In this document: piece by piece, positions 11,406-61,013 of the stretch
How the letters are laid out: every line of letters starts with the position of its first letter
How positions within the stretch are numbered: position 1 is the stretch's first letter
Assembly (NCBI RefSeq): GCF_028285745.1
Contig: NZ_JANQOP010000103.1
Location: 24,001 to 88,000 of the forward strand
Reading direction: 5' to 3'
Length of the DNA stretch: 64,000 nucleotides
DNA from: Acaryochloris sp. IP29b_bin.137
Lineage (GTDB): Bacteria > Cyanobacteriota > Cyanobacteriia > Thermosynechococcales > Thermosynechococcaceae
Made by a program: the position numbers and the translations under genes
The notes under the pieces: model-generated
What the model was told of the DNA's origin: nothing
What the model saw: the letters and a program-made list of their open reading frames with translations, nothing else
The model's database searches: none

Positions 11406-14400
11406 TTAGATAACAAAAGCCTCAAAGCTCGAGCTAATGATGGTGTCGGCCTGTACCCCACTCAAAATAGCCAAGAGTTCATCGGTTGCTGCCACAGAAA
11501 TCAACGTATCTGCTGCTTCAGTTCCCACCCCTTGCTCAATTGCTAATTGAGCAAAAGAGAGGTCACCCACCAGTCCAATCACGTCATCAAGGGTAAAATC
11601 TGTGATGGTATCGATTCCTTCACCCACAGCAAGAGCAAACAGGTCTTCACCCGTACCCCCTGTCAGTAAGTCATTTCCCATACCACCAATCAGATTATCG
11701 TCACCCTCATTACCATTCAGAGTATCTTGATCGCGATCTCCATACAGATCATCATCGCCTTGGCCACCTTCTAGCAGATCATTGCCACGTCCACCAAGGA
11801 TGTTGTCGTCGCCTTCTCCACCAACAATAGTGTCGTCACCTCGTCCCCCGCTGAGGTCATCATCAGTTGTCCCCCCTGCAAGGGAATCGTCTCCACGACT
11901 CCCTTGGTGATCGGTGGGCGAATCACCGTTGTCGTCACCACCTGAGGAGCCCCCATCATTCTCAAGACCCGCTAGGCCCACTCGGGGATCAAGGTCAAGT
12001 GGTTCACTCAGCTTGATTTGAATGATTTCGTTGTTGTCGATGTCAGGTCCGCGACCAACGGAGAAAGGATAGTTATTGTCATTGGCGACCAATAGCGTGT
12101 CTTCGTCAATGACCAGGACATCTTCGATGGTGACGAAGGGAAAGTTGAAAGTTGTCTCTCCATCCCCATTCAAATCATTCGGATCATTGATGCTCAGAAG
12201 ATCAACCAGTTCTTCCTTCATCACAAACCCTTCGTCATCCAATTGAGACAAATCCACCTTGAAGATTTTCTTGAAGGCAGCTTCATCTCCTTGATTGCCA
12301 TCCCGCTCAATCACAAGATATTCGTTCTCATTAATGACTGTGAAATCACCAATGGCATGGCTGGGGTCATCTAGCTGATAGCGACCGACCAGACCTTGAT
12401 ATTTGCTGGATTCTACGTCGAATTCATAAATTCTGAGGGAACCTTCTGGATCGCCTTCGACGGTGCCCTCCAACATGGGATAGAGGGTCATCCGATCGGG
12501 GCTGATGGCCATTCCTTCGAATCCGCGTGAGCGAGGTAGGTTAGAGACCTCATCCCCTGCCAACACATCAGGATTATCGGGTGAGCGTACCACGTCGGCC
12601 ACGATTTGATCTCGAACTGCGTCTCCGGTCCCTGGAAAATCGGTGAAGAACCCATCTACCCCAATGTCAATCAGCTGCTTAATTTCCTCCTCAGGGGTTT
12701 GTGGAGTGCCATCGGCATTGAGGGTTAGAAACCGCTCTTCATTCCGCAGGGTATAGGGATGAACCTGTAATCCAGCGGCGTGGGCATCATCCACAAAAGA
12801 GGTCACTTCCCCGGTCAGTTGGGTGGTGATTTCAGCATTGCCGTCGCCATCCCCATCGACAGGAGTATCAAGGGCTTCTCGCAGTAAGAAATTATTTTTC
12901 CAAGGGCCAGCACCTTCGGCATATTTCTCGCTAATAATTTGGAGAATTTCAGGATTGTCTAAATCACTGTAGATGGTGTTTTCTGACAGCGCATTTTCTG
13001 CGGCATCTAAGAAGTCTTGCCCATAAATGGCCGCTAAGTCGTTGTCTTGTTCAACGTTGTAGCGAATATCGTAGGGCACAGAAAATCCAGAATCAGGATT
13101 GGCACTCGCAGTGGTATTGCCATAGAGCTGGACTAGGGGAATATTGCCTAACCCTTCTGCATCTAACATGCCTTGGAGTTCAATTAAGTTCTGAAACTCG
13201 AAGGACTGGATAAATAGACGGCTGGGATCCGTAAAGCCCGTTTCTTGGAGGGTCGCAATGAGTGGCTCTTCCAGGGATAGATCCTGTAAATCAAAGAAGG
13301 TGGGATGCTTAGTTTCGGGATAAATACCAACTACTTGTCCAGTTTGGGCTTCGACGTCCTGGACCAGCTCAATCACTTCTTTGAGGGTGGGAATCTCGAA
13401 AGCGCCGTTGAAATTCTGCGATCTAAAATCACGAGACTGCACGGCTCGCAGCATTTTGATTTCTTCTAAGGTGAAGTCTTCGGCGAAGTAGCCAGTGGTT
13501 TCCACCCCATCCAGCATTTTGGTCGACATCCGCTCAGGACCGAAGACATCGGCGACGTTGGTGGTGTCATCCAGCAATGGCTCATGGCGAGCAATCAGAA
13601 CACCATCTTTGGTAATCACCAAGTCAGGCTCAATAAAGTCAGCTCCTTGGGCGATGGCTGTGGCATAGGCCTCTAAGGTGTGCTCGGGCAAAATACCGCT
13701 GGCCCCCCGGTGTCCAATGACGATGGGATCTTGGCCGTTGAGGGTATTCAGTTCTACCGGGTTGGGTGTAGCAGTGGGGGCTTCGATTAACTCACCATCG
13801 CTATTGAAGTGCAGGAGGTAAGGGCCAAATTCTTCACCCACCCAAATGTCGCCATTGCCATCAATGACAAAAGACTCAACATCGAAATCAGACCCGGTGA
13901 GCTGACGCTCAGTCGTACCTTCATTCTGAATCTCAAAAGGAATGAGGTTATTGGGATCAGAGAGTTGAATAAAGTCTTCGACCTCAACCGATCCATCGCC
14001 ACCTTCTGAACCTGCAAAGCTGGGGTCAACTTTGTAGAGTCGCAGTAAATAATCAGAGCTATTGGTTTTCGCCCCAAAGCCATTGTCAGACAAGAACCAG
14101 AAACTACCATCGCTGTCTGCAAACTGTACACCACTAAAACCTTGGACGGGTTGACCCTCAAAAGGACCCGTGCGACCGTTGGCATCGATGGGGCCGCCAT
14201 TACCATTGTCGCCACCTGCAGGAGGTCCCTCAGCAAAGGTGTCGGCGGGGAGAGACGCAAATCCTTCTAACTCGCTGTTACCTGCTGCTTCAGGAGCAAC
14301 ACCAAACAGGGTCTGATACATGACGCGATAGATATCAGTATTGTCTGTTGTGGCAGGTAATAGGTCAGCATTTAGACCATAGGTTTTGGAGACGATGCCA

Positions 14401-17027
14401 CCATTGACATCAGAGCGAGTGGCCCAAGCAACACCGAAGTCAAACACGTCACCGTCGGCATCGGGAGCGCCTGTGGTGAAAGCTTCGAAAATATCGGTAC
14501 TGAAGCCAGGTACGTCATTGCTGCCGTCAATATCATCAACCTGAACAAGCGTTCCGTCAGCGTCATCGCCAAAAGCGGCCAATTCAGCTTGAGTTCGAAG
14601 GGTAAACCCTGCGGCTGGATCGGCTGGATCTAAGCCAAAGCCACTAATCGGGACATCGTCGACTTCTAAGCCACCTGCATCAGAATCTGCAGCTGTGATG
14701 ACTAATGTGTTGGGATCAACATTGTCGACAAAATCAAGGGCAACACCGATAGCTTCATCTGCACGGAGAGCGGCTTCGATAGTGCCAGCAGCATTGTTAT
14801 CATTACCGAAATTGTCTGTTCCTTCCTCTTCCAAGGCCAAGAAGAAACCATCTGGGTCACGGTTGAGAATCGGCAGTGCCACCTCCAGCATCTCAGCCAC
14901 AGTCGGTGGATTGGGGTTGAGGGGGGGCTGACCATACAAAATCAGATCACCATTTTCGTCGACAAAACCATCTCGACGCAGCTCATCTTCGAAAAAGTCG
15001 TTATAGGTGTCTTCTGCTGCAAAAATACCCAGCAAGCGATCCGTATTGGCGGTGTCGACCGCTAACAGTTCGTCGCGGGTGAAAACAACCTCATACCCTG
15101 CTGATTCGGCTTCCTCAATCAGGTTGCGGCCATCAGTTCGGGTTCCTTCTTCCCCGAAAAAGCCCACTGTACCAACGGGTAAATAATCTGTTTCACCCGC
15201 CCCAAGCATCACATCTGGACGCTGATCCAGAATTTCAGCAGTGATGGCCTCCGTCTCACCTCGATTGTCTACATCAGCCAGAAAAACGCCTGTGCCGGGC
15301 TCGGCAATAAATCCAGAGTTAATGATGCCGACGGCTTTACCAGCAGCCTGGGCCTCTTGGGCAATGGTGGCATTCTGACCGGAAAGGGCAACGATTTCTT
15401 GGCCCCCTTCGTCAACAGGCGCATCAAACCCATAGCTACCTGCAAAGGGTTTTACACCGTACGCATGAACAACCGCTCCTGCATTAGAAGTGGAAACGAG
15501 ACGATCATCAATATGGCCTAAATAGACCCCTGCATTGCTCATCTGGTCCCAATTCAGACGGCCATCGGTCCCCAAGGATGAGAACCGTGCTGCTGCATAG
15601 TGCGAGGGGCTGGTCCCGTCCGGGTGAATAAAAATGACGTTGCCAGTATCGGCAGTGGGTTCTGGAGCTTCACGAGGATCCAGATCATCGGGCACACCCT
15701 CTGGTGCATCTAGGCGAACATCAAAGAGACTTTCGTAGATCAGTCGATAAATCGTTGTGTTATCGAGGGTTGCAGGTAAACGGTCTGCCCCTTCGCCGTA
15801 GGCTTTTGAAACAATGCTCCCCGCAAAGTCCGGTAGACCCGCCCATGCAACGCCGAATTCGTAGCTGTTGCCGTTTCTATCCGGTGCGCTCACAAATGGC
15901 GCGGTGTCGCTGCCCGTTGTGCCATCTAAAGGTACGGTAATGCCGCTGTCTTCCCCAGCTTCGTCCAACTGCCGTTGGGTCGTGGTGGTTCCTACTGTGG
16001 GGCCGGAAACATCGTCAATCTCTAAAGCTCCGCCTGCACTGTCTGCAGCGGTGACGACAAAGGTATTGGCGTTGACGTTATCAATAAAATCGCGTGCTAC
16101 CCCAATGGCGGCATCGGCTCTGAGAGTAGCATCAATCGTCCCCCGAGCATTGTTGTTATTGCCAAAGTTATCGGTTCCTTCTTCTTCCAGAACGATAAAG
16201 AATCCGTCTTCTTCTTGGCTAAATAAATCGAGCTTGAGCGTTGCTTCCAGCATCTCAGCCACAGTAGGCGGATTTGGATTGAGAGGTGGCTGACCATAGG
16301 TAATCAGTTCACCGTTATCATCCACAAAACCGTCTTGAATGAGTTGCCCTTCAGGAACGTCGTTATAGGTATCATCGGCAGCGAAAACACCCAGCACGCG
16401 TTCGGTGTCTGCTGGCAAACTTTCCAATTGCTCACGGGTATACACAACGGTATAGCCCATGACTTCGGCTTCCTCGATGAGGTTACGGCCATCTGTTCGG
16501 GTTCCTTCTTCACCGAAGAATCCAACAGTGCCAACAGGAAGATAATCAATTTCACCCGCAGCCATGATCACGTTGACACCAGACTCTACTATCTGAGCGG
16601 TAATGCCTTCGCGATCGCGCCGACTTTCCGCATCGGCTAGAAATACGCCTGTACCAGGTTCAGCAATAAAGCCTGAGTTAATCACAGCCGTTGGGCGGCC
16701 TGCAGCAATCGCTTCTTGTAGAACCGTTGCGTCTGGAGCTGAACCCGCAACATTCTGGCCTTGAAGGGCAGCAAGGGATTGATATGCAACCCCGTTTTCA
16801 TCAAAGCCATAGCTGGGCGCAACGGACTTGATGCCATAAGCGTGGACGACCGCACCCCCATTGGATGTTGCGACTACGCTATCGTCTAGGTGTCCCAGAT
16901 AGACACCCGCTGCAGGTGCTTCATCCCAATTCAAGCGACCATCAGGGCCAACGGATTCGAACCGGGCAGCAGCAAAATGTGATGGGTCCGCTCCATCTGG
17001 ATGAATAAAAATAACGTTACTTGTCAT
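11406..17027 (-). CDS. Giant RTX-type multidomain phosphoesterase (2x alkaline phosphatase, phytase-like with nested GDPD)
   Basis: A protein of 1873 residues from ATG 17027, which is preceded by GAGGTCTATTTC; a frame starting at 17117 adds 30 residues without support. Domains in order: alkaline-phosphatase-like 1 (about 1-450), alkaline-phosphatase-like 2 (about 460-930), an esterase/phytase-like beta-propeller start (about 940-1090), a glycerophosphodiester phosphodiesterase (about 1095-1470; VIGHRGASG, EPDLVIT, ARHEP), resumption of the propeller (about 1495-1680; RGFEGMAISPD), then at least seven RTX nonapeptides of GGxGxD type (about 1696-1800) and a short C-terminal tail. RTX repeats bind calcium, and the C-terminal tail would direct type I secretion; no classical signal peptide is seen. 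Each phosphatase copy lacks the usual His ligands (see findings). Likely role: scavenging phosphate from organic esters outside the cell. Confidence 0.85.
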   Translation of the reverse strand: MTSNVIFIHPDGADPSHFAAARFESVGPDGRLNWDEAPAAGVYLGHLDDSVVATSNGGAVVHAYGIKSVAPSYGFDENGVAYQSLAALQGQNVAGSAPDATVLQEAIAAGRPTAVINSGFIAEPGTGVFLADAESRRDREGITAQIVESGVNVIMAAGEIDYLPVGTVGFFGEEGTRTDGRNLIEEAEVMGYTVVYTREQLESLPADTERVLGVFAADDTYNDVPEGQLIQDGFVDDNGELITYGQPPLNPNPPTVAEMLEATLKLDLFSQEEDGFFIVLEEEGTDNFGNNNNARGTIDATLRADAAIGVARDFIDNVNANTFVVTAADSAGGALEIDDVSGPTVGTTTTQRQLDEAGEDSGITVPLDGTTGSDTAPFVSAPDRNGNSYEFGVAWAGLPDFAGSIVSKAYGEGADRLPATLDNTTIYRLIYESLFDVRLDAPEGVPDDLDPREAPEPTADTGNVIFIHPDGTSPSHYAAARFSSLGTDGRLNWDQMSNAGVYLGHIDDRLVSTSNAGAVVHAYGVKPFAGSYGFDAPVDEGGQEIVALSGQNATIAQEAQAAGKAVGIINSGFIAEPGTGVFLADVDNRGETEAITAEILDQRPDVMLGAGETDYLPVGTVGFFGEEGTRTDGRNLIEEAESAGYEVVFTRDELLAVDTANTDRLLGIFAAEDTYNDFFEDELRRDGFVDENGDLILYGQPPLNPNPPTVAEMLEVALPILNRDPDGFFLALEEEGTDNFGNDNNAAGTIEAALRADEAIGVALDFVDNVDPNTLVITAADSDAGGLEVDDVPISGFGLDPADPAAGFTLRTQAELAAFGDDADGTLVQVDDIDGSNDVPGFSTDIFEAFTTGAPDADGDVFDFGVAWATRSDVNGGIVSKTYGLNADLLPATTDNTDIYRVMYQTLFGVAPEAAGNSELEGFASLPADTFAEGPPAGGDNGNGGPIDANGRTGPFEGQPVQGFSGVQFADSDGSFWFLSDNGFGAKTNSSDYLLRLYKVDPSFAGSEGGDGSVEVEDFIQLSDPNNLIPFEIQNEGTTERQLTGSDFDVESFVIDGNGDIWVGEEFGPYLLHFNSDGELIEAPTATPNPVELNTLNGQDPIVIGHRGASGILPEHTLEAYATAIAQGADFIEPDLVITKDGVLIARHEPLLDDTTNVADVFGPERMSTKMLDGVETTGYFAEDFTLEEIKMLRAVQSRDFRSQNFNGAFEIPTLKEVIELVQDVEAQTGQVVGIYPETKHPTFFDLQDLSLEEPLIATLQETGFTDPSRLFIQSFEFQNLIELQGMLDAEGLGNIPLVQLYGNTTASANPDSGFSVPYDIRYNVEQDNDLAAIYGQDFLDAAENALSENTIYSDLDNPEILQIISEKYAEGAGPWKNNFLLREALDTPVDGDGDGNAEITTQLTGEVTSFVDDAHAAGLQVHPYTLRNEERFLTLNADGTPQTPEEEIKQLIDIGVDGFFTDFPGTGDAVRDQIVADVVRSPDNPDVLAGDEVSNLPRSRGFEGMAISPDRMTLYPMLEGTVEGDPEGSLRIYEFDVESSKYQGLVGRYQLDDPSHAIGDFTVINENEYLVIERDGNQGDEAAFKKIFKVDLSQLDDEGFVMKEELVDLLSINDPNDLNGDGETTFNFPFVTIEDVLVIDEDTLLVANDNNYPFSVGRGPDIDNNEIIQIKLSEPLDLDPRVGLAGLENDGGSSGGDDNGDSPTDHQGSRGDDSLAGGTTDDDLSGGRGDDTIVGGEGDDNILGGRGNDLLEGGQGDDDLYGDRDQDTLNGNEGDDNLIGGMGNDLLTGGTGEDLFALAVGEGIDTITDFTLDDVIGLVGDLSFAQLAIEQGVGTEAADTLISVAATDELLAILSGVQADTIISSSFEAFVI

Positions 17028-17140
17028 GAAATAGACCTCAGTAATAAATTCATTCGCTGCTGTATCAGCTCTGGACATGAAACTCGTGGCCCAGAAGAGA
17101 ATGTCAACAGCGGACAACTAAATGGGATTTTTCCTTATTG

Positions 17141-53154: not shown

Positions 53155-54111
53155 ATGAAACCCTATCGACCTAGCAACACAGTGCCTGGAACAGGATGGG
53201 TATGGCTACTGGCGCTCTCAACTCTGGGAGGGGTAGTCGTAGGGGGTGCGATCGCATTTATCGCCCGTTGGCTTTATTTGTTGCTGATCTTTCCAGCCCT
53301 GATGGGGTTTACAAGTGGCGGAAGCACTGCCATTGCCATTAAGAGAGGCAAAGTTCGAAATCCATGGGTCGGTTTACTATTTGGGTTGCTGACAGGCTTG
53401 ATCACCTATGGGTCCTATCAGGGGGGGGAATACTTCTTCACCCAGCAGTCCTTTGCCAAACAGATTGAGGCAGAGTTTGGGCAAGACATAGATCCAGCGG
53501 AGGCAAACGCTCTGATAGATGCTTTTTGGCAGGAACAAACCGGATCATCCGGCTTTTTGGGATATCTCAAATATGCTGCCAAACAGGGAATTAGCATCGG
53601 TCGCGTCGGTAGCAGTGGTGATGGTCTCCCCCTAAATGAAACGTTTACCTGGCTATATTGGCTGATTGAGTTAGCCATTATCGAAGCCATCAGTTTAGCC
53701 ATAGCGAAGCCTGCAGCTGAGGAACCGTTTTGCGAGACCTGCGAACAGTGGTACGCCCAGGGCCAAAGGATAGGTACGGTCGCAGACGATCGATCTGAGA
53801 TTTTCCTCAATACGGTACAGGCCGATCAGATGGTCCAAGCCGCAACCTATATACAGGCGAAGACGGTCGCGCACCCCCGTTTAGAAGTTGACCTCCGTCA
53901 GTGTTCAGGATGCGACCGGGGAGAAGTTGCCCTTGAGGTTCAACGCTATTCTGAGAATAAAGAAGGGGAAGGTAAACGCTCTCAAGTCTTAATGGGAATG
54001 TTATCCCATCGCCAATCTTTACAGTTGTCTGAGGCCGTTTCCGCTTCATCAGAGTCTGACCATAAACCTGAATCAGATGCGAATGAATCAGATGCCAGTC
54101 AGGAAGGCTAG
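53155..54111 (+). CDS. Membrane protein with paired CxxC motifs
   Basis: A 318-residue protein of no recognised family. Two or three membrane helices occupy about 15-90 and a further hydrophobic segment about 167-187. The remaining part contains CETC (about 194-197) and CSGC (about 246-249), two CxxC pairs that could bind one zinc, followed by a Ser/Glu-rich disordered tail. The overall plan (membrane domain plus cytosolic zinc site) fits a sensor or scaffold, but this is inference. A 26-nt gap separates it from the sugar kinase gene in the same direction. Confidence 0.7.
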   Translation: MKPYRPSNTVPGTGWVWLLALSTLGGVVVGGAIAFIARWLYLLLIFPALMGFTSGGSTAIAIKRGKVRNPWVGLLFGLLTGLITYGSYQGGEYFFTQQSFAKQIEAEFGQDIDPAEANALIDAFWQEQTGSSGFLGYLKYAAKQGISIGRVGSSGDGLPLNETFTWLYWLIELAIIEAISLAIAKPAAEEPFCETCEQWYAQGQRIGTVADDRSEIFLNTVQADQMVQAATYIQAKTVAHPRLEVDLRQCSGCDRGEVALEVQRYSENKEGEGKRSQVLMGMLSHRQSLQLSEAVSASSESDHKPESDANESDASQEG

Positions 54112-56316: not shown

Positions 56317-57765
56317 CTAATTCGGTGGGGCGATACGGGTGGCAAAATTTTGCGATCGCGTCGGTGAAAGCTGGCGGGCTTTGAGAATCGCAGCCGTTAA
56401 AAAGACATAGGCCAAGACACCAACAATCATCAGGGCTAGAACAACAGCCAAGTCTCCGAAATTTTGAGCTAGACCACCGGAAGCATTCCAAAAGGCATGA
56501 ATGCCAGAAGAGGTTAGATAGCCAATCCCTAAAATTTTCCATCTTTGAGCTGGCTTGAGAATGCTCAGACCAATAAAATAGCCAAAAATACCGCTATAGG
56601 CCATATGTCCCGCGACAGAACCTAGAATCCTGGGAATCAAGAGCTGAACCGCGGCTAAGGCTCCAGCAAACTCATTTGCAGACGATCTTGCAACGTCTGC
56701 CGCAATGCCAGGAACATATTGACCTAAGGTTTCCAGTAAGGTAAATCCCAGCGCCGAAGCCGCCCCAATTAAAATGCCATCTAAGGGCTCCCAAACGCCA
56801 ACTTTTTGACGACTGGGGGGACGTAACTGTGATCCCAAAAAAAAGAACCCAAAGATAGGAAGCGCTTTCAATAGCTCTTCCATTAAACCCGCCCCAAAGA
56901 AGTGGCTAATTAGTTGAGAAATAAAATCTGGAGAGGCATCTTGAACATTCCCTGGCAAAATTCCTCGAAAAATCAGAATAAACAAACTCAAGACGGGCGT
57001 TACCAGAATCACCATCGTAAATAAGGTGCTAAGGAATAACACCCACCAGGGCTTCTTTTTACCGCATAATCGGTAAATGAAATAGAACCCGCCACCCCCT
57101 AAATACAACGCCAAGAGCAAATTAAAGATCGGTGGGTTGGTCGCAAAGATAAACAGCAATACCACCATCATCACCGTCAGAATTCCGGGTATTAGATATC
57201 CTTTGCCCAAGAGATCTTTGCGAGCTGAAACGATGGGAAACAATTGGCTAGCAGTGACCTGATTAGACACAGCGCCTGGCTGAGGTGGGTAAACCGGTGG
57301 TTGAGGTGGGTAAACCGGTTGTGCAGGTTGAGGCGGGGGATATGAGGGCTGTGTTGGAATGGGGGCAGAAGAGCCCGTTGCCGCAGCCTGGTCCACGAGC
57401 TGGGTTGCTCGATGCTCAAACAGGAACTCAGGGCCATTGTGGCTCAGCATAATCCGATCCCCCACATTCAAGGTTTGACACCCTTGAATTCGCTGACCGT
57501 TCACATAGGTGCCGTTGGCACTATTGAGATCACAAATCTGCCAGATGGGGGCACCTTGGGGAGTTCGAGACCCCGTTGGTCTGACCACCGCATGGCGGCG
57601 CGAGACCCCGCCATAGAGCGTTGAATCGATAATGACTTGGCAATCTGCTGTCCGACCTATCGCTGTTTCATCCGTTTCAGATAGGGAATAACAAGACTGT
57701 GATGCATCAGCACTAGACTGCGCTGAAATGAGTCGGAGTAAACCACTCTGCTGATCGTTCACCAT
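56317..57765 (-). CDS. FHA domain fused to PrsW-family intramembrane protease
   Basis: A 482-residue protein. The FHA domain (about 20-125) has GR at 37-38, S55-R-R-H58 and NSANGTYVNG at 81-90, all needed to bind phosphothreonine. A Pro/Gln-rich linker (about 135-165, repeats of PPQP) leads to a membrane domain of about eight helices. That domain shows the PrsW signature: E296-E297-x-x-K300, Glu345 in FTLLE, His387 in GHMAYSG and His423 in HAFWN. PrsW cuts anti-sigma factors or similar membrane proteins. The FHA domain would make cleavage depend on a threonine-phosphorylated partner. Divergent from two other FHA genes. Confidence 0.87.
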   Translation of the reverse strand: MVNDQQSGLLRLISAQSSADASQSCYSLSETDETAIGRTADCQVIIDSTLYGGVSRRHAVVRPTGSRTPQGAPIWQICDLNSANGTYVNGQRIQGCQTLNVGDRIMLSHNGPEFLFEHRATQLVDQAAATGSSAPIPTQPSYPPPQPAQPVYPPQPPVYPPQPGAVSNQVTASQLFPIVSARKDLLGKGYLIPGILTVMMVVLLFIFATNPPIFNLLLALYLGGGGFYFIYRLCGKKKPWWVLFLSTLFTMVILVTPVLSLFILIFRGILPGNVQDASPDFISQLISHFFGAGLMEELLKALPIFGFFFLGSQLRPPSRQKVGVWEPLDGILIGAASALGFTLLETLGQYVPGIAADVARSSANEFAGALAAVQLLIPRILGSVAGHMAYSGIFGYFIGLSILKPAQRWKILGIGYLTSSGIHAFWNASGGLAQNFGDLAVVLALMIVGVLAYVFLTAAILKARQLSPTRSQNFATRIAPPN

Positions 57766-58085
57766 AGGTTGCCCCGCTGCTGATTACTTCTGAATGGTGG
57801 CGCTAAAGATAGCTGCCAAGAAATAGGAGTCTGTTTTATTTCTTAGCAGGATTGGGATATTGCTGCAATCTTAAGAATGCCCCTTATTCAGCCATCTATA
57901 GCTTGTAGCAGACTGAGATCGCGGTGATGATTGTCACGGCAGCGCGGGTATGCTGAGGGGAAGGTAAGGCTCAAAAGAGTCCTTAAAACATTTGGTACCT
58001 TATCCTGCTGTGGGCAAGATCCTGCCTATTAATAGGGAATACTGCTTCTGCACTTGACTCAGACCTTAACGAGCTGGCGGCATCC
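57766..58085. other. Divergent promoter region between FHA genes
   Basis: 320 nt without a gene. It contains an inverted repeat AAGAAATA (57818-57825) / TATTTCTT (57837-57844) with an 11-nt loop, nearer to the FHA-PrsW gene. Promoters for both directions must lie here; co-regulation of the two sides is plausible. Confidence 0.5.
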
Positions 58086-58598
58086 ATGAGTGAATTAACA
58101 CTCCAATGGTCAGAATTCGGCCAAACTAAAACCCAAGTTTTACGCAATCAACAACCTAGCAAGCAGCCGGGGAAAATTCGTTTAGGTCGCGACCCAGCCC
58201 TATGTGACATTGTGTTTCAAGAGCGCTCTGTCTCAGGATTGCACGTCGAAATTTTCTTTCAACCCCAAGCGCAGCAGTTTTTTATTCGGAGCTTGCGCCT
58301 GCAAAACCCCCCCCTAGTAGACGGCATTTTGCTTAAACAGGGAGATTTACCGATACGGGCGGGCAGCCGGATCAAGTTAGGGCGCGTGGAGCTGCAAATT
58401 ACGGCCATGACCATTACGCCCCCAGCCATTCCCCCCACCTTTCCCAAAAGTGGCCCCTCCTCCACGGCTGCCTATGGACTGCAATGCCCCCAATGCCACC
58501 ATGTTTCTGCCTATAGTAACGATGCGATTAAGCAAGACTGTCCCATGTGTGGTCATTCAATGGCCACCTCCAACACGGTCTTTATTGGCAAGCCTTAG
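58086..58598 (+). CDS. FHA domain protein with C-terminal zinc ribbon
   Basis: A 170-residue protein. The FHA domain (about 10-110) has GR at 34-35 and S50-G-L-H53. The asparagine that usually contacts the peptide in the NG loop is replaced by a LVDG loop near 77-80, so binding may be altered. The C-terminus is a zinc ribbon: Cys134-x2-Cys137 (CPQC) and Cys152-x2-Cys155 (CPMC). It is 12 nt upstream of the FHA-oxidoreductase gene, so co-transcribed. The ribbon could bind a protein or nucleic acid. Confidence 0.82.
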   Translation: MSELTLQWSEFGQTKTQVLRNQQPSKQPGKIRLGRDPALCDIVFQERSVSGLHVEIFFQPQAQQFFIRSLRLQNPPLVDGILLKQGDLPIRAGSRIKLGRVELQITAMTITPPAIPPTFPKSGPSSTAAYGLQCPQCHHVSAYSNDAIKQDCPMCGHSMATSNTVFIGKP

Positions 58599-58610
58599 GG
58601 ACTGTAAAGT

Positions 58611-60566
58611 ATGAGCACCATTCCTGGGCAAGTACGGCTGAGCTGGCAAGATCCAGTCACCGGAGAACAACGAACCCCACTTTTAACTTGTCCGATTGCC
58701 TTTGGTCGCGAATTTGCCCGCATGCCTGCTGAACTAAACAACCAGCGCGTGGCCCGGATCGTCCTGAATAGTAGCCAAGTCTCCCGTTATCACACCCTGA
58801 TTGAGTGGGTGCAAGGCCATATTCGCATCACCGACCAAAACAGCAGTAACGGCACCTGGGTGAATGGGGTCCTGCAATCGAGCTGTAACGTCAGCAATGG
58901 CGATCTGCTCAAGATTGGTCCCTACGAAATCACCTTGATGTTTACCCTGGACGGGACGGGGCTACCCACAGCCGAGGCCAGTGAGCAATCGATTATTCAA
59001 GTTCCTGAACCAGACTCTCCCGTTCCGGCTGAGCCTGTCGCAGCCCCTGCTAACGTGTTACCCCCAGCCTTTCAAGCGCATCAGGTTGTGGTCCAAGATT
59101 TGTATGCCACTCGACTCTCAGTGGAGGAGATCGATTATTTAGCTGTGGGGGCGGGGTTAGGGAGCTTTATTTGGGTCGATTTTCTCCGCATCTTTGGGGC
59201 TGCGCCCCAGCAAATTCGCGCATTGGGCATCGAAGATCGCCCCTATGCTCGTTACCAAAGGCTCTGCCTCAATTCCCAGATTCCCCCACACGAGCGTTTA
59301 CGGTCTAATTCCGACTCCTGCCCTGACAACATCTGGGGTTGGCCGGGCTATGCCCTACGAGAAGCTTGGCAAGAATTTAATAAAGGCAAACTCAATCCTG
59401 CCCTGCAGTATCTATGGCAGGTTTTTGCAGAGCCCACCTTTGCCCAAACCTACACCCCTAGAGCAGGCAATGTGTTTGCCTCGATTGATCGAGAGGCCAT
59501 TCGGATTGGCTGGCCCCAAATCTATCGGTTCGGTCGAGTCCGAGCGATTCGGCAAACGAATGATGGCCGCTATGCGATCGCGTATTCTCCAGGTCGCAAA
59601 CAAACAGCCTTTGTCATCGCCCGTCATGTCCATCTAGCCACTGGCTATCCGGTCTTACAATTTCTACCTGACCTCAAAGCCTATCGAGAGCAAACCCGAG
59701 ACTTTAAATCCGTTGTCAATGCCTACGAAGATCATAACCACGTTTATGAAACCCTAGAACGCCAGGGAGGAACAGTTGTGCTTCGGGGGCGGGGAATCGT
59801 AGCCTCAAGGATTATTCAGCGGATCCATGAGGCTCGCCATCGCAATCCCAATATTTCGATTTTGCACTTAATGCGGTCGCCTAAGCCTAAAGGGAATCGA
59901 TTTCGCAAAGCCCAGAGGCCGGTCGATAATCATTTTGAATTCCAACCCTTTAATTGGCCCAAAGCCTGTTGGGGGGGGACCTTACGGGAAGAACTGGAGC
60001 AGGCCACACCCGATCAGCGCACGAACTTACTGGCCGATTGGGGTGGGACCACCACAGCCGATCGTCAGGATTGGAAAGTCATTGTTCAACAAGGACTGGA
60101 TCAAGGCTGGTATCAAATTACCTTTGGTGAGGTCACTCGCGTGGTCCCTAATACCCAATCTCGTCCCACGACCTATATCCAAGAGAAAGGTCCACGGGGT
60201 GAAATTAAGTTGGAAGCTGACTTTATCATTGATGCCACCGGTCTGGATAGCAAGGTAAAAGCGAGTCCTTTACTGAACGACCTGGTCACCCACTATAATT
60301 TGCCCCTTAACCCAGCTGGTCGATTGGCTGTCGCCAACGATTTTGAACTCCTGGAAATGCGGAACCAAAATGGTCGTATGTATGGGGCTGGAGCGATCAC
60401 CTTTGGCGGTCCCTACGCTGCTGTAGACAGCTTTTTGGGCCTTCAATACACTGCCTTACGAGCTGTCGATGGATTAGTCACAGCGCGTGCCCCCAATTTA
60501 CGCCGCCTCAACGGCATTGGCTCATTCTGGCAATGGCTGAGATGGGCGCAAAACCAAACTCCCTAA
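58611..60566 (+). CDS. FHA domain fused to FAD/NAD(P)-dependent oxidoreductase
   Basis: A 651-residue protein. The N-terminal FHA domain (about 8-115) has Gly32-Arg33, Ser58 to His61 (SRYH) and SSNGTWVNG at 78-86. A Pro/Glu-rich linker runs about 118-160. The rest is a flavoprotein with Rossmann motif AVGAGLGS at 178-185, a second nucleotide-binding site RGRGIVASR near 400, DFIIDATGLDSKV near 545 and the closing GAGAITFGGPYAAVDS. The layout resembles N-hydroxylating or Baeyer-Villiger-like monooxygenases, but the substrate is unknown. The FHA fusion implies recruitment to, or control by, a phosphothreonine-bearing protein. A gap of 12 nt separates it from genes on both sides. Confidence 0.83.
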   Translation: MSTIPGQVRLSWQDPVTGEQRTPLLTCPIAFGREFARMPAELNNQRVARIVLNSSQVSRYHTLIEWVQGHIRITDQNSSNGTWVNGVLQSSCNVSNGDLLKIGPYEITLMFTLDGTGLPTAEASEQSIIQVPEPDSPVPAEPVAAPANVLPPAFQAHQVVVQDLYATRLSVEEIDYLAVGAGLGSFIWVDFLRIFGAAPQQIRALGIEDRPYARYQRLCLNSQIPPHERLRSNSDSCPDNIWGWPGYALREAWQEFNKGKLNPALQYLWQVFAEPTFAQTYTPRAGNVFASIDREAIRIGWPQIYRFGRVRAIRQTNDGRYAIAYSPGRKQTAFVIARHVHLATGYPVLQFLPDLKAYREQTRDFKSVVNAYEDHNHVYETLERQGGTVVLRGRGIVASRIIQRIHEARHRNPNISILHLMRSPKPKGNRFRKAQRPVDNHFEFQPFNWPKACWGGTLREELEQATPDQRTNLLADWGGTTTADRQDWKVIVQQGLDQGWYQITFGEVTRVVPNTQSRPTTYIQEKGPRGEIKLEADFIIDATGLDSKVKASPLLNDLVTHYNLPLNPAGRLAVANDFELLEMRNQNGRMYGAGAITFGGPYAAVDSFLGLQYTALRAVDGLVTARAPNLRRLNGIGSFWQWLRWAQNQTP

Positions 60567-60578
60567 CACGATTCAATT

Positions 60579-61013
60579 ATGACACCCACTCTTCTTGGTC
60601 GCTGGCAAACTCGTATTCTCCTCATGGAAACCGTGGGCCTTGTGATTACACTCTTATTCGGGGGTGGTTTCCTTGGCAATCCCGAAGGTTCTGTTTATTT
60701 CTGGTTGCTACAATACATTATTGTCTTTGGCTTGGGTTGGGACTACCTTTACATCCAGATCCAAAATTTCCGTTGGGACCAAGATTGGCCTGCAGCGCTG
60801 CAATGGCTTGCGGCTATTTGGGAAGCAATATTTATTGTGTTATTGGTGGAGGTTTTGGGTATCGAGCTGCCTCTCATACCTGCGTCTGACTGGCAGTTAG
60901 GGTGGTTTATTGTTCACTACGGCTTTGTTTGGGTTGGAGTATTTATCGCATCCCAAAGCTTGATGCGGCTGATGTTTCCCCGTTGGCGCTTCCGGGGCGG
61001 TCAGTGGCTGTAA
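60579..61013 (+). CDS. Small four-helix membrane protein of the FHA cluster
   Basis: A 144-residue protein. Hydrophobic segments at about 13-30, 37-54, 72-90 and 103-125. No charged active-site pattern is evident; basic at the C-terminus (RWRFRGGQW). It follows the FHA-oxidoreductase by 12 nt and is presumably its membrane partner. No family recognised. Confidence 0.7.
   Translation: MTPTLLGRWQTRILLMETVGLVITLLFGGGFLGNPEGSVYFWLLQYIIVFGLGWDYLYIQIQNFRWDQDWPAALQWLAAIWEAIFIVLLVEVLGIELPLIPASDWQLGWFIVHYGFVWVGVFIASQSLMRLMFPRWRFRGGQWL

Follow-up and report, generated by a model that had tools for sequence, protein, structure and literature searches.

This report concerns a four-gene locus in a 64,000-nucleotide stretch of DNA from the cyanobacterium Acaryochloris sp. 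IP29b_bin.137 (NCBI RefSeq assembly GCF_028285745.1, contig NZ_JANQOP010000103.1, positions 24,001 to 88,000 of the forward strand), referred to below as the window, whose coordinates are used unless another locus is named. Three neighbouring genes encode proteins with an FHA domain, joined to a PrsW-family intramembrane protease (FHA-PrsW), to a putative zinc-ribbon adaptor (ZR) or to a flavoenzyme-like protein (OX), and a fourth encodes a small membrane protein (MEM). The four open reading frames (ORFs), the gaps of 12 nt each between ZR and OX (58599-58610) and between OX and MEM (60567-60578), and the divergent orientation of the protease gene, separated from the other three by 320 bp (57766-58085), are as a first-pass annotation of the sequence had described them. 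The FHA domains that it assigned to three genes are likewise borne out, all being above the curated Pfam cut-off (E=2.7e-15 in FHA-PrsW, 2.8e-9 in ZR and 2.2e-12 in OX), as are the PrsW protease gene (E=1.2e-35) and the small membrane protein, for which four helices are predicted. The features of the locus are:

56317..57765, minus strand: FHA-PrsW gene, FHA domain plus PrsW-family intramembrane protease, 482 aa; a clade-specific divergent neighbour
57445..57663, minus strand: FHA domain of the PrsW protein (aa 35-107; Pfam E=2.7e-15)
57766..58085, no strand: divergent intergenic region with conserved blocks, e.g. CCTTAAAACA-T-GGTACCTTATCC (three Acaryochloris loci aligned)
58086..58598, plus strand: ZR gene, FHA domain plus putative C-terminal zinc-ribbon adaptor, 170 aa
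58485..58550, plus strand: zinc-ribbon Cys of ZR, C134 ... C152xxC155 (C134 and C152 invariant, C155 at least 90% conserved)
58611..60566, plus strand: OX gene, FHA domain plus flavoenzyme-like protein, 651 aa
58710..58919, plus strand: FHA domain of OX (aa 34-103; Pfam E=2.2e-12)
59103..60563, plus strand: enzyme part of OX (aa 165-651), in no Pfam or NCBIfam family
59148..59165, plus strand: putative first dinucleotide (FAD) loop of OX, GAGLGS (aa 180-185; G180, G182 and G184 invariant in all aligned rows)
59787..59804, plus strand: putative second dinucleotide (NAD(P)H) loop of OX, GRGIVA, of the form GxGxxA (aa 393-398; G393, G395, A398 and the downstream R422 invariant)
60579..61013, plus strand: MEM gene, predicted four-helix membrane protein, 144 aa; obligate OX partner

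Conservation was examined in 339 cyanobacterial genomes, using only the enzyme part of OX as a query so that FHA domains could not produce matches, and searching for MEM separately as a profile; the genome counts are uncorrected for shared ancestry. OX is present in 56 genomes, every copy being an open frame of ~640-735 aa, and an FHA region precedes the enzyme part in all of the OX ORFs read (57 loci). MEM was found in 55 of these 56 genomes and never in the 283 that lack OX, the sole exception (G278) being an assembly in 170 contigs. A full-length ZR accompanies OX in 49 of the 56 genomes and is likewise missing from all 283 others. ZR precedes OX in the same orientation at all 49 loci, and MEM shares the strand of OX at 44 of 46. 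The evolutionarily kept unit is ZR-OX-MEM, not four genes, and the strongest link within it is that between OX and MEM, which the first-pass annotation had overlooked. Tractable strains with the module include Picosynechococcus sp. PCC 7117 (L097) and many Nostoc, the nearest OX genes come from Acaryochloris bins (90-92% identity), and no viral copies were found in IMG/VR.

The pairing of OX with MEM extends to copy number and to close relatives. Where a genome has a second OX copy it also has a second MEM copy (G174, G284 and G255), both genes are found in the identical 16 of 58 close relatives, and within one genus (g17) some genomes carry both and G048 carries neither. MEM is also retained where it lies away from the OX locus (G068, G125, G167, G197, G157 and G262), and the OX and MEM distance matrices are correlated at r=0.84, compared with a maximum of 0.37 in 500 permutations. 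That gains, losses, duplications and relocations are matched in this way speaks against shared descent as the sole cause. In the actinobacterium Nonomuraea gerenzanensis (L031), OX is found without an FHA domain and with MEM directly after it, and so OX-MEM looks like the core, with FHA and ZR a later cyanobacterial addition, as far as this one actinobacterial sequence can tell.

Some OX copies depart from the common form. At one locus (L088; G255:C1, 8024-10231) the second OX copy is shortened and runs in frame into MEM as a single 735-aa ORF, the result either of a deletion or of a natural fusion of OX with MEM. Nostocales and other groups also hold a second OX clade that is divergent (L080-L087; 51-55% identity) and for the most part lacks ZR; in some genomes, such as G284, it is present in addition to a copy of the main type.

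The enzyme part of OX has 51-92% full-length identity in cyanobacteria and 38% in Nonomuraea. More than 80 of its residues are invariant between the actinobacterial and the cyanobacterial sequences; among them are those of the two dinucleotide loops and of a polar cluster, RxRSxS...PDNxWGxP. The conserved motifs are GxGxG (in the loop GxGxGS), GxGxxA, GYP (LATGYP) and DxTG (IIDATG), together with R422 after the second loop, and the NADP motif GxGxx(G/A) is represented by G393-R-G-I-V-A398. Pfam and NCBIfam gave no significant family over the 487 residues of the enzyme part in 13 diverse members. An AlphaFold2 model of OX, built from 40 own-locus sequences (pLDDT 79), has a predicted two-dinucleotide flavoprotein fold for which Foldseek returned the ornithine N-hydroxylases SidA and PvdA as the best matches (E ~1e-15 to 1e-14), with a TM score by target length of 0.60-0.66, a root-mean-square deviation (rmsd) of ~8.5 Å and ~14% identity, all for a predicted model. 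The first-pass annotation had called the protein a full FAD/NAD(P) oxidoreductase, and the motifs and predicted fold agree with this in kind, leaving it outside any recognised Pfam or NCBIfam family. On its motifs and modelled fold, OX has the appearance of an enzyme dependent on flavin and NAD(P)H, and it is not assigned to a known family. A disulfide oxidoreductase of the Pyr_redox type was considered and rejected, as OX has no invariant redox-active Cys pair and no Cys is left among its invariant columns once Nonomuraea is included.

MEM belongs to no Pfam or NCBIfam family, and its AlphaFold2 model, which consists of four long helices (pLDDT 86), gave no match in a fold search of the PDB. 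Mean conservation is 0.96 at the N-terminus, 0.87 at the C-terminus and 0.78 in the loop between the second and third transmembrane helices, whereas the remaining two loops reach 0.45 and 0.53. In a four-helix topology both termini and this middle loop would lie on one side of the membrane, and this side is predicted to be cytoplasmic by the positive-inside rule since both termini are positively charged (mean net charge +2.0 at the N-terminus and +3.6 at the C-terminus). A conserved cytoplasmic side of this kind would fit a docking platform for the soluble OX, which would be expected to contact MEM at the N-terminus, an RWDxDWP loop and the C-terminus.

FHA domains normally recognise phosphorylated proteins through phosphothreonine. 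In the OX domain G32, R33, S58, H61, N85 and G97 are invariant in 40 homologues and N80 is kept in 39 of them, and the core of the PrsW domain (GR, SRRH and NGT) is conserved in 30 orthologues; on these alignments the core phosphothreonine-binding residues are retained in both. The ZR domain keeps GR, S, H and one N, with no Arg after the Ser and no NGT turn. The zinc ribbon that had been read in ZR is supported by its three conserved Cys, and the library match remained below threshold. With 30 FHA matches in the 5.5 Mb of the Acaryochloris genome (G000), three consecutive FHA genes are well above what is expected by chance (a rough estimate being 5000 x (26/5000)^3 ~0.0007). The same genome has 35 kinase matches beside its 30 FHA matches, which amounts to a large phosphothreonine signalling set.

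The protease domain of FHA-PrsW scores 123 bits against a Pfam cut-off of 23.5, and the motifs EELLK, GHxAY and HAFW (E296, E297, K300, H387 and H423) are conserved in 30 orthologues. Its score for the NCBIfam PrsW equivalog, the anti-sigma factor protease, is 19.6 bits against a cut-off of 225, and so it is assigned by its sequence to the PrsW superfamily of proteases, with no anti-sigma role implied. Near FHA-PrsW genes, a conserved ORF that by eye resembles a CHAT-type protease occurs in 17 of 29 loci (L170-L198).

We consider that ZR-OX-MEM probably forms a functional unit, in which OX would be a MEM-docked, NAD(P)H-dependent flavoenzyme under phosphothreonine control through FHA in cyanobacteria (probability roughly 0.55). 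In such a unit the cytoplasmic face of MEM would dock OX, a flavin- and NAD(P)H-dependent enzyme with a two-dinucleotide-binding fold closest to the N-hydroxylating monooxygenases, and the docked enzyme could oxidise a substrate in or at the membrane, for example a lipid, a quinone, a carotenoid or a membrane-bound protein. Cyanobacteria would have gained an FHA domain at the N-terminus of OX and ZR as a second adaptor with FHA domain and zinc ribbon, and a Thr kinase may place or switch OX through phosphothreonine. In one clade FHA-PrsW would have come under the same divergent control region and might cleave one of the module's membrane components, most obviously MEM, but the role and target of the protease in this single clade are a guess. 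Of this picture, the conserved gene set, the matching copy numbers and the motifs are seen in the sequences, the folds and the topology are predictions, and docking, phosphothreonine control, enzymatic activity and a membrane substrate are inferred. A more far-reaching possibility, offered tentatively, is that OX and MEM found a new class of membrane flavoenzyme complex, with two undescribed families forming one enzyme and phosphothreonine recognition built into the catalytic subunit, by which a Ser/Thr kinase would place a redox enzyme at the plasma or thylakoid membrane, one clade adding an intramembrane protease as a shut-off.

The chemistry of OX could be of another kind. Many Foldseek matches, dihydrolipoamide dehydrogenase among them, share the two-dinucleotide fold class of the OX model, and a membrane partner that is obligate suits quinone access, so OX might instead be an NAD(P)H dehydrogenase or an electron-transfer flavoprotein (fold class of NDH-2 and SQR) that docks at the membrane and passes electrons via MEM to the quinone pool or another membrane acceptor. 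We regard this as rather doubtful, given that the N-hydroxylases are the best matches by both E-value and TM score while the dehydrogenases reach TM scores of only ~0.36/0.47 with an rmsd of ~13 Å, that the loss of every invariant Cys with Nonomuraea leaves no disulfide-reductase chemistry, and that MEM has no family-wide invariant His (H113 is lost in Nonomuraea). It is very unlikely, in our view, that OX is a catalytically inactive nucleotide-binding protein acting as a redox or NADPH sensor or scaffold and signalling through FHA and MEM; its place outside known families, its FHA fusion and the non-enzymatic nature of ZR would suit such a role, but the more than 80 invariant residues, with both loops and the polar cluster among them, look like a retained active site.

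A different unit altogether was proposed by the first-pass annotation, which read the four genes as one system. Here a Ser/Thr kinase would drive FHA-PrsW, FHA-ZR and FHA-OX jointly, with PrsW proteolysis as one part of the core mechanism. FHA-PrsW and OX do co-occur above chance expectation, since of the 72 genomes with FHA-PrsW 49 have OX and 23 do not (49/56 genomes with OX against 23/283 others; 31/35 against 12/94 by genera), and the genes flanking the adjacent pair vary among genera, which indicates that the divergent arrangement was kept while its surroundings changed. This adjacency is confined to a single clade of the OX tree (Acaryochloris, Lyngbya confervoides BDU141951, Vasconcelosia and Petrachloros; loci L089, L090, L092, L093 and L094, and by position genomes G339, G342, G343, G347 and G350, some of which are possibly the same genomes as the named loci) and has a single origin, whereas FHA-PrsW lies within 8.5 kb of the module in 0 of 57 loci sampled outside the Acaryochloris-type clade. 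Seven OX genomes lack FHA-PrsW entirely, including G177 and G332, where ZR, OX and MEM are all present, and within the same family FHA-PrsW without OX is common. Of the 57 loci, 11 (L032, L033, L041, L064, L078, L081-L085 and L088) have a kinase within 8.5 kb of the module, against 5.6 expected (P=0.02 before correction for shared ancestry), but these nearby Hanks-type kinases are of various kinds, differing in their sensors (DUF4189, WD40, TPR/PDZ, RDD, GUN4 and PsbP). The enrichment is suggestive, and it lends weak support to the idea of a kinase acting on the set. A single four-gene system is therefore unlikely: the protease is separable, and what stands of the earlier proposal of an undescribed system is that ZR-OX-MEM is real, conserved, apparently undescribed and no chance cluster.

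Several observations weigh against the MEM-docked, FHA-controlled flavoenzyme that we favour. The link between OX and flavoenzymes consists of a predicted fold and short motifs only: the OX profile had no sequence match in the PDB, its profile comparison with FMO-like proteins was not significant, and residues ~229-243 are highly conserved yet modelled with low confidence. Furthermore, the genomes are not independent samples, and Fisher P values overstate the case for co-occurrence. The seven OX genomes without ZR (e.g. G064, G103 and G051) hold only the divergent OX subclade, and ZR is accordingly not essential to the core, while the FHA domain of ZR has SGLH in place of the SRYH and SRRH of OX and FHA-PrsW.

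In the divergent region, alignment of three Acaryochloris loci shows conserved blocks near 57980-58005 (CCTTAAAACA...GGTACCTTATCC) and near 57894-57925 (ATCTATAGC...TGT...GATCGC), and no match to the sigma-70 consensus was found in 57766-58085. Elsewhere in the window, a 318-aa putative membrane protein without a Pfam match (53155-54111) lies upstream of an FGGY carbohydrate kinase gene, and a 1903-aa ORF on the minus strand (11406-17117) contains, by eye, phosphatase-like repeats, a glycerophosphodiester phosphodiesterase-like part and C-terminal calcium-binding (RTX-like) repeats.

Among known systems, the best fold matches of OX are the N-hydroxylating flavin monooxygenases (SidA and PvdA; PF13434), which have the FAD loop and the GxGxxA NADPH loop in the same order. 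OX differs from this family in its low identity (~14%) and in having no significant sequence-profile match, the PF13434 model reaching only E=0.14 in one of 13 members. Where the family carries the substrate motif D(x)3(L/F)ATGY(x)4(H/P) (N-hydroxylase motifs from PMC4909778), OX has a C-terminal D-x3-DATG followed by Leu in place of the tyrosine, and the final H/P is not kept. In addition, its FAD loop ends in S, and it has an N-terminal FHA domain and an obligate membrane partner. FMO-like and Pyr_redox_3 flavoproteins (PF00743 and PF13738) have the same overall two-dinucleotide architecture; a lone hhalign match puts their NADPH loops in register with that of OX, below significance, and OX matches no Pfam or NCBIfam family. 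Flavin-dependent (tryptophan) halogenases (PF04820) gave weak, sub-threshold matches in 3 of 13 OX members, and the WGWP of OX (aa 242-245) recalls their WxWxIP motif (PMC10696468). This assignment was rejected, as the xIP is missing and the second W, which is F in Nonomuraea, is not invariant; unlike two-component halogenases, OX also carries its own NAD(P)H-type loop.

OdhI and GarA are bacterial FHA proteins that link Thr phosphorylation to metabolism as stand-alone inhibitors. Their FHA domains match that of OX weakly, and in OX the domain is fused to the enzyme itself. FHA-PrsW fusions are already mentioned in passing among signalling versions of PrsW (PMC3482391); the relevant passages of that source make no mention of a divergent partner operon, and the adjacency seen here is clade-specific. 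For an FHA-flavoenzyme or the ZR-OX-MEM gene set, no description was found in the open-access literature. The parts are of known kinds (FHA, the two-dinucleotide flavoprotein fold and PrsW), but the libraries that were searched have no annotation for the OX and MEM families, and an obligate pairing of the two is, to our knowledge, new.

Few outputs are known for the Ser/Thr kinases and FHA proteins that cyanobacteria encode by the dozen; kinase matches averaged 6.6 per Mb over 35 genomes. The module described here ties FHA directly to a putative enzyme and to an obligate membrane partner, and gives two unannotated protein families a testable joint function. If the docking model is right, the module would be an example of a membrane redox enzyme in a photosynthetic bacterium that is controlled directly by phosphothreonine.

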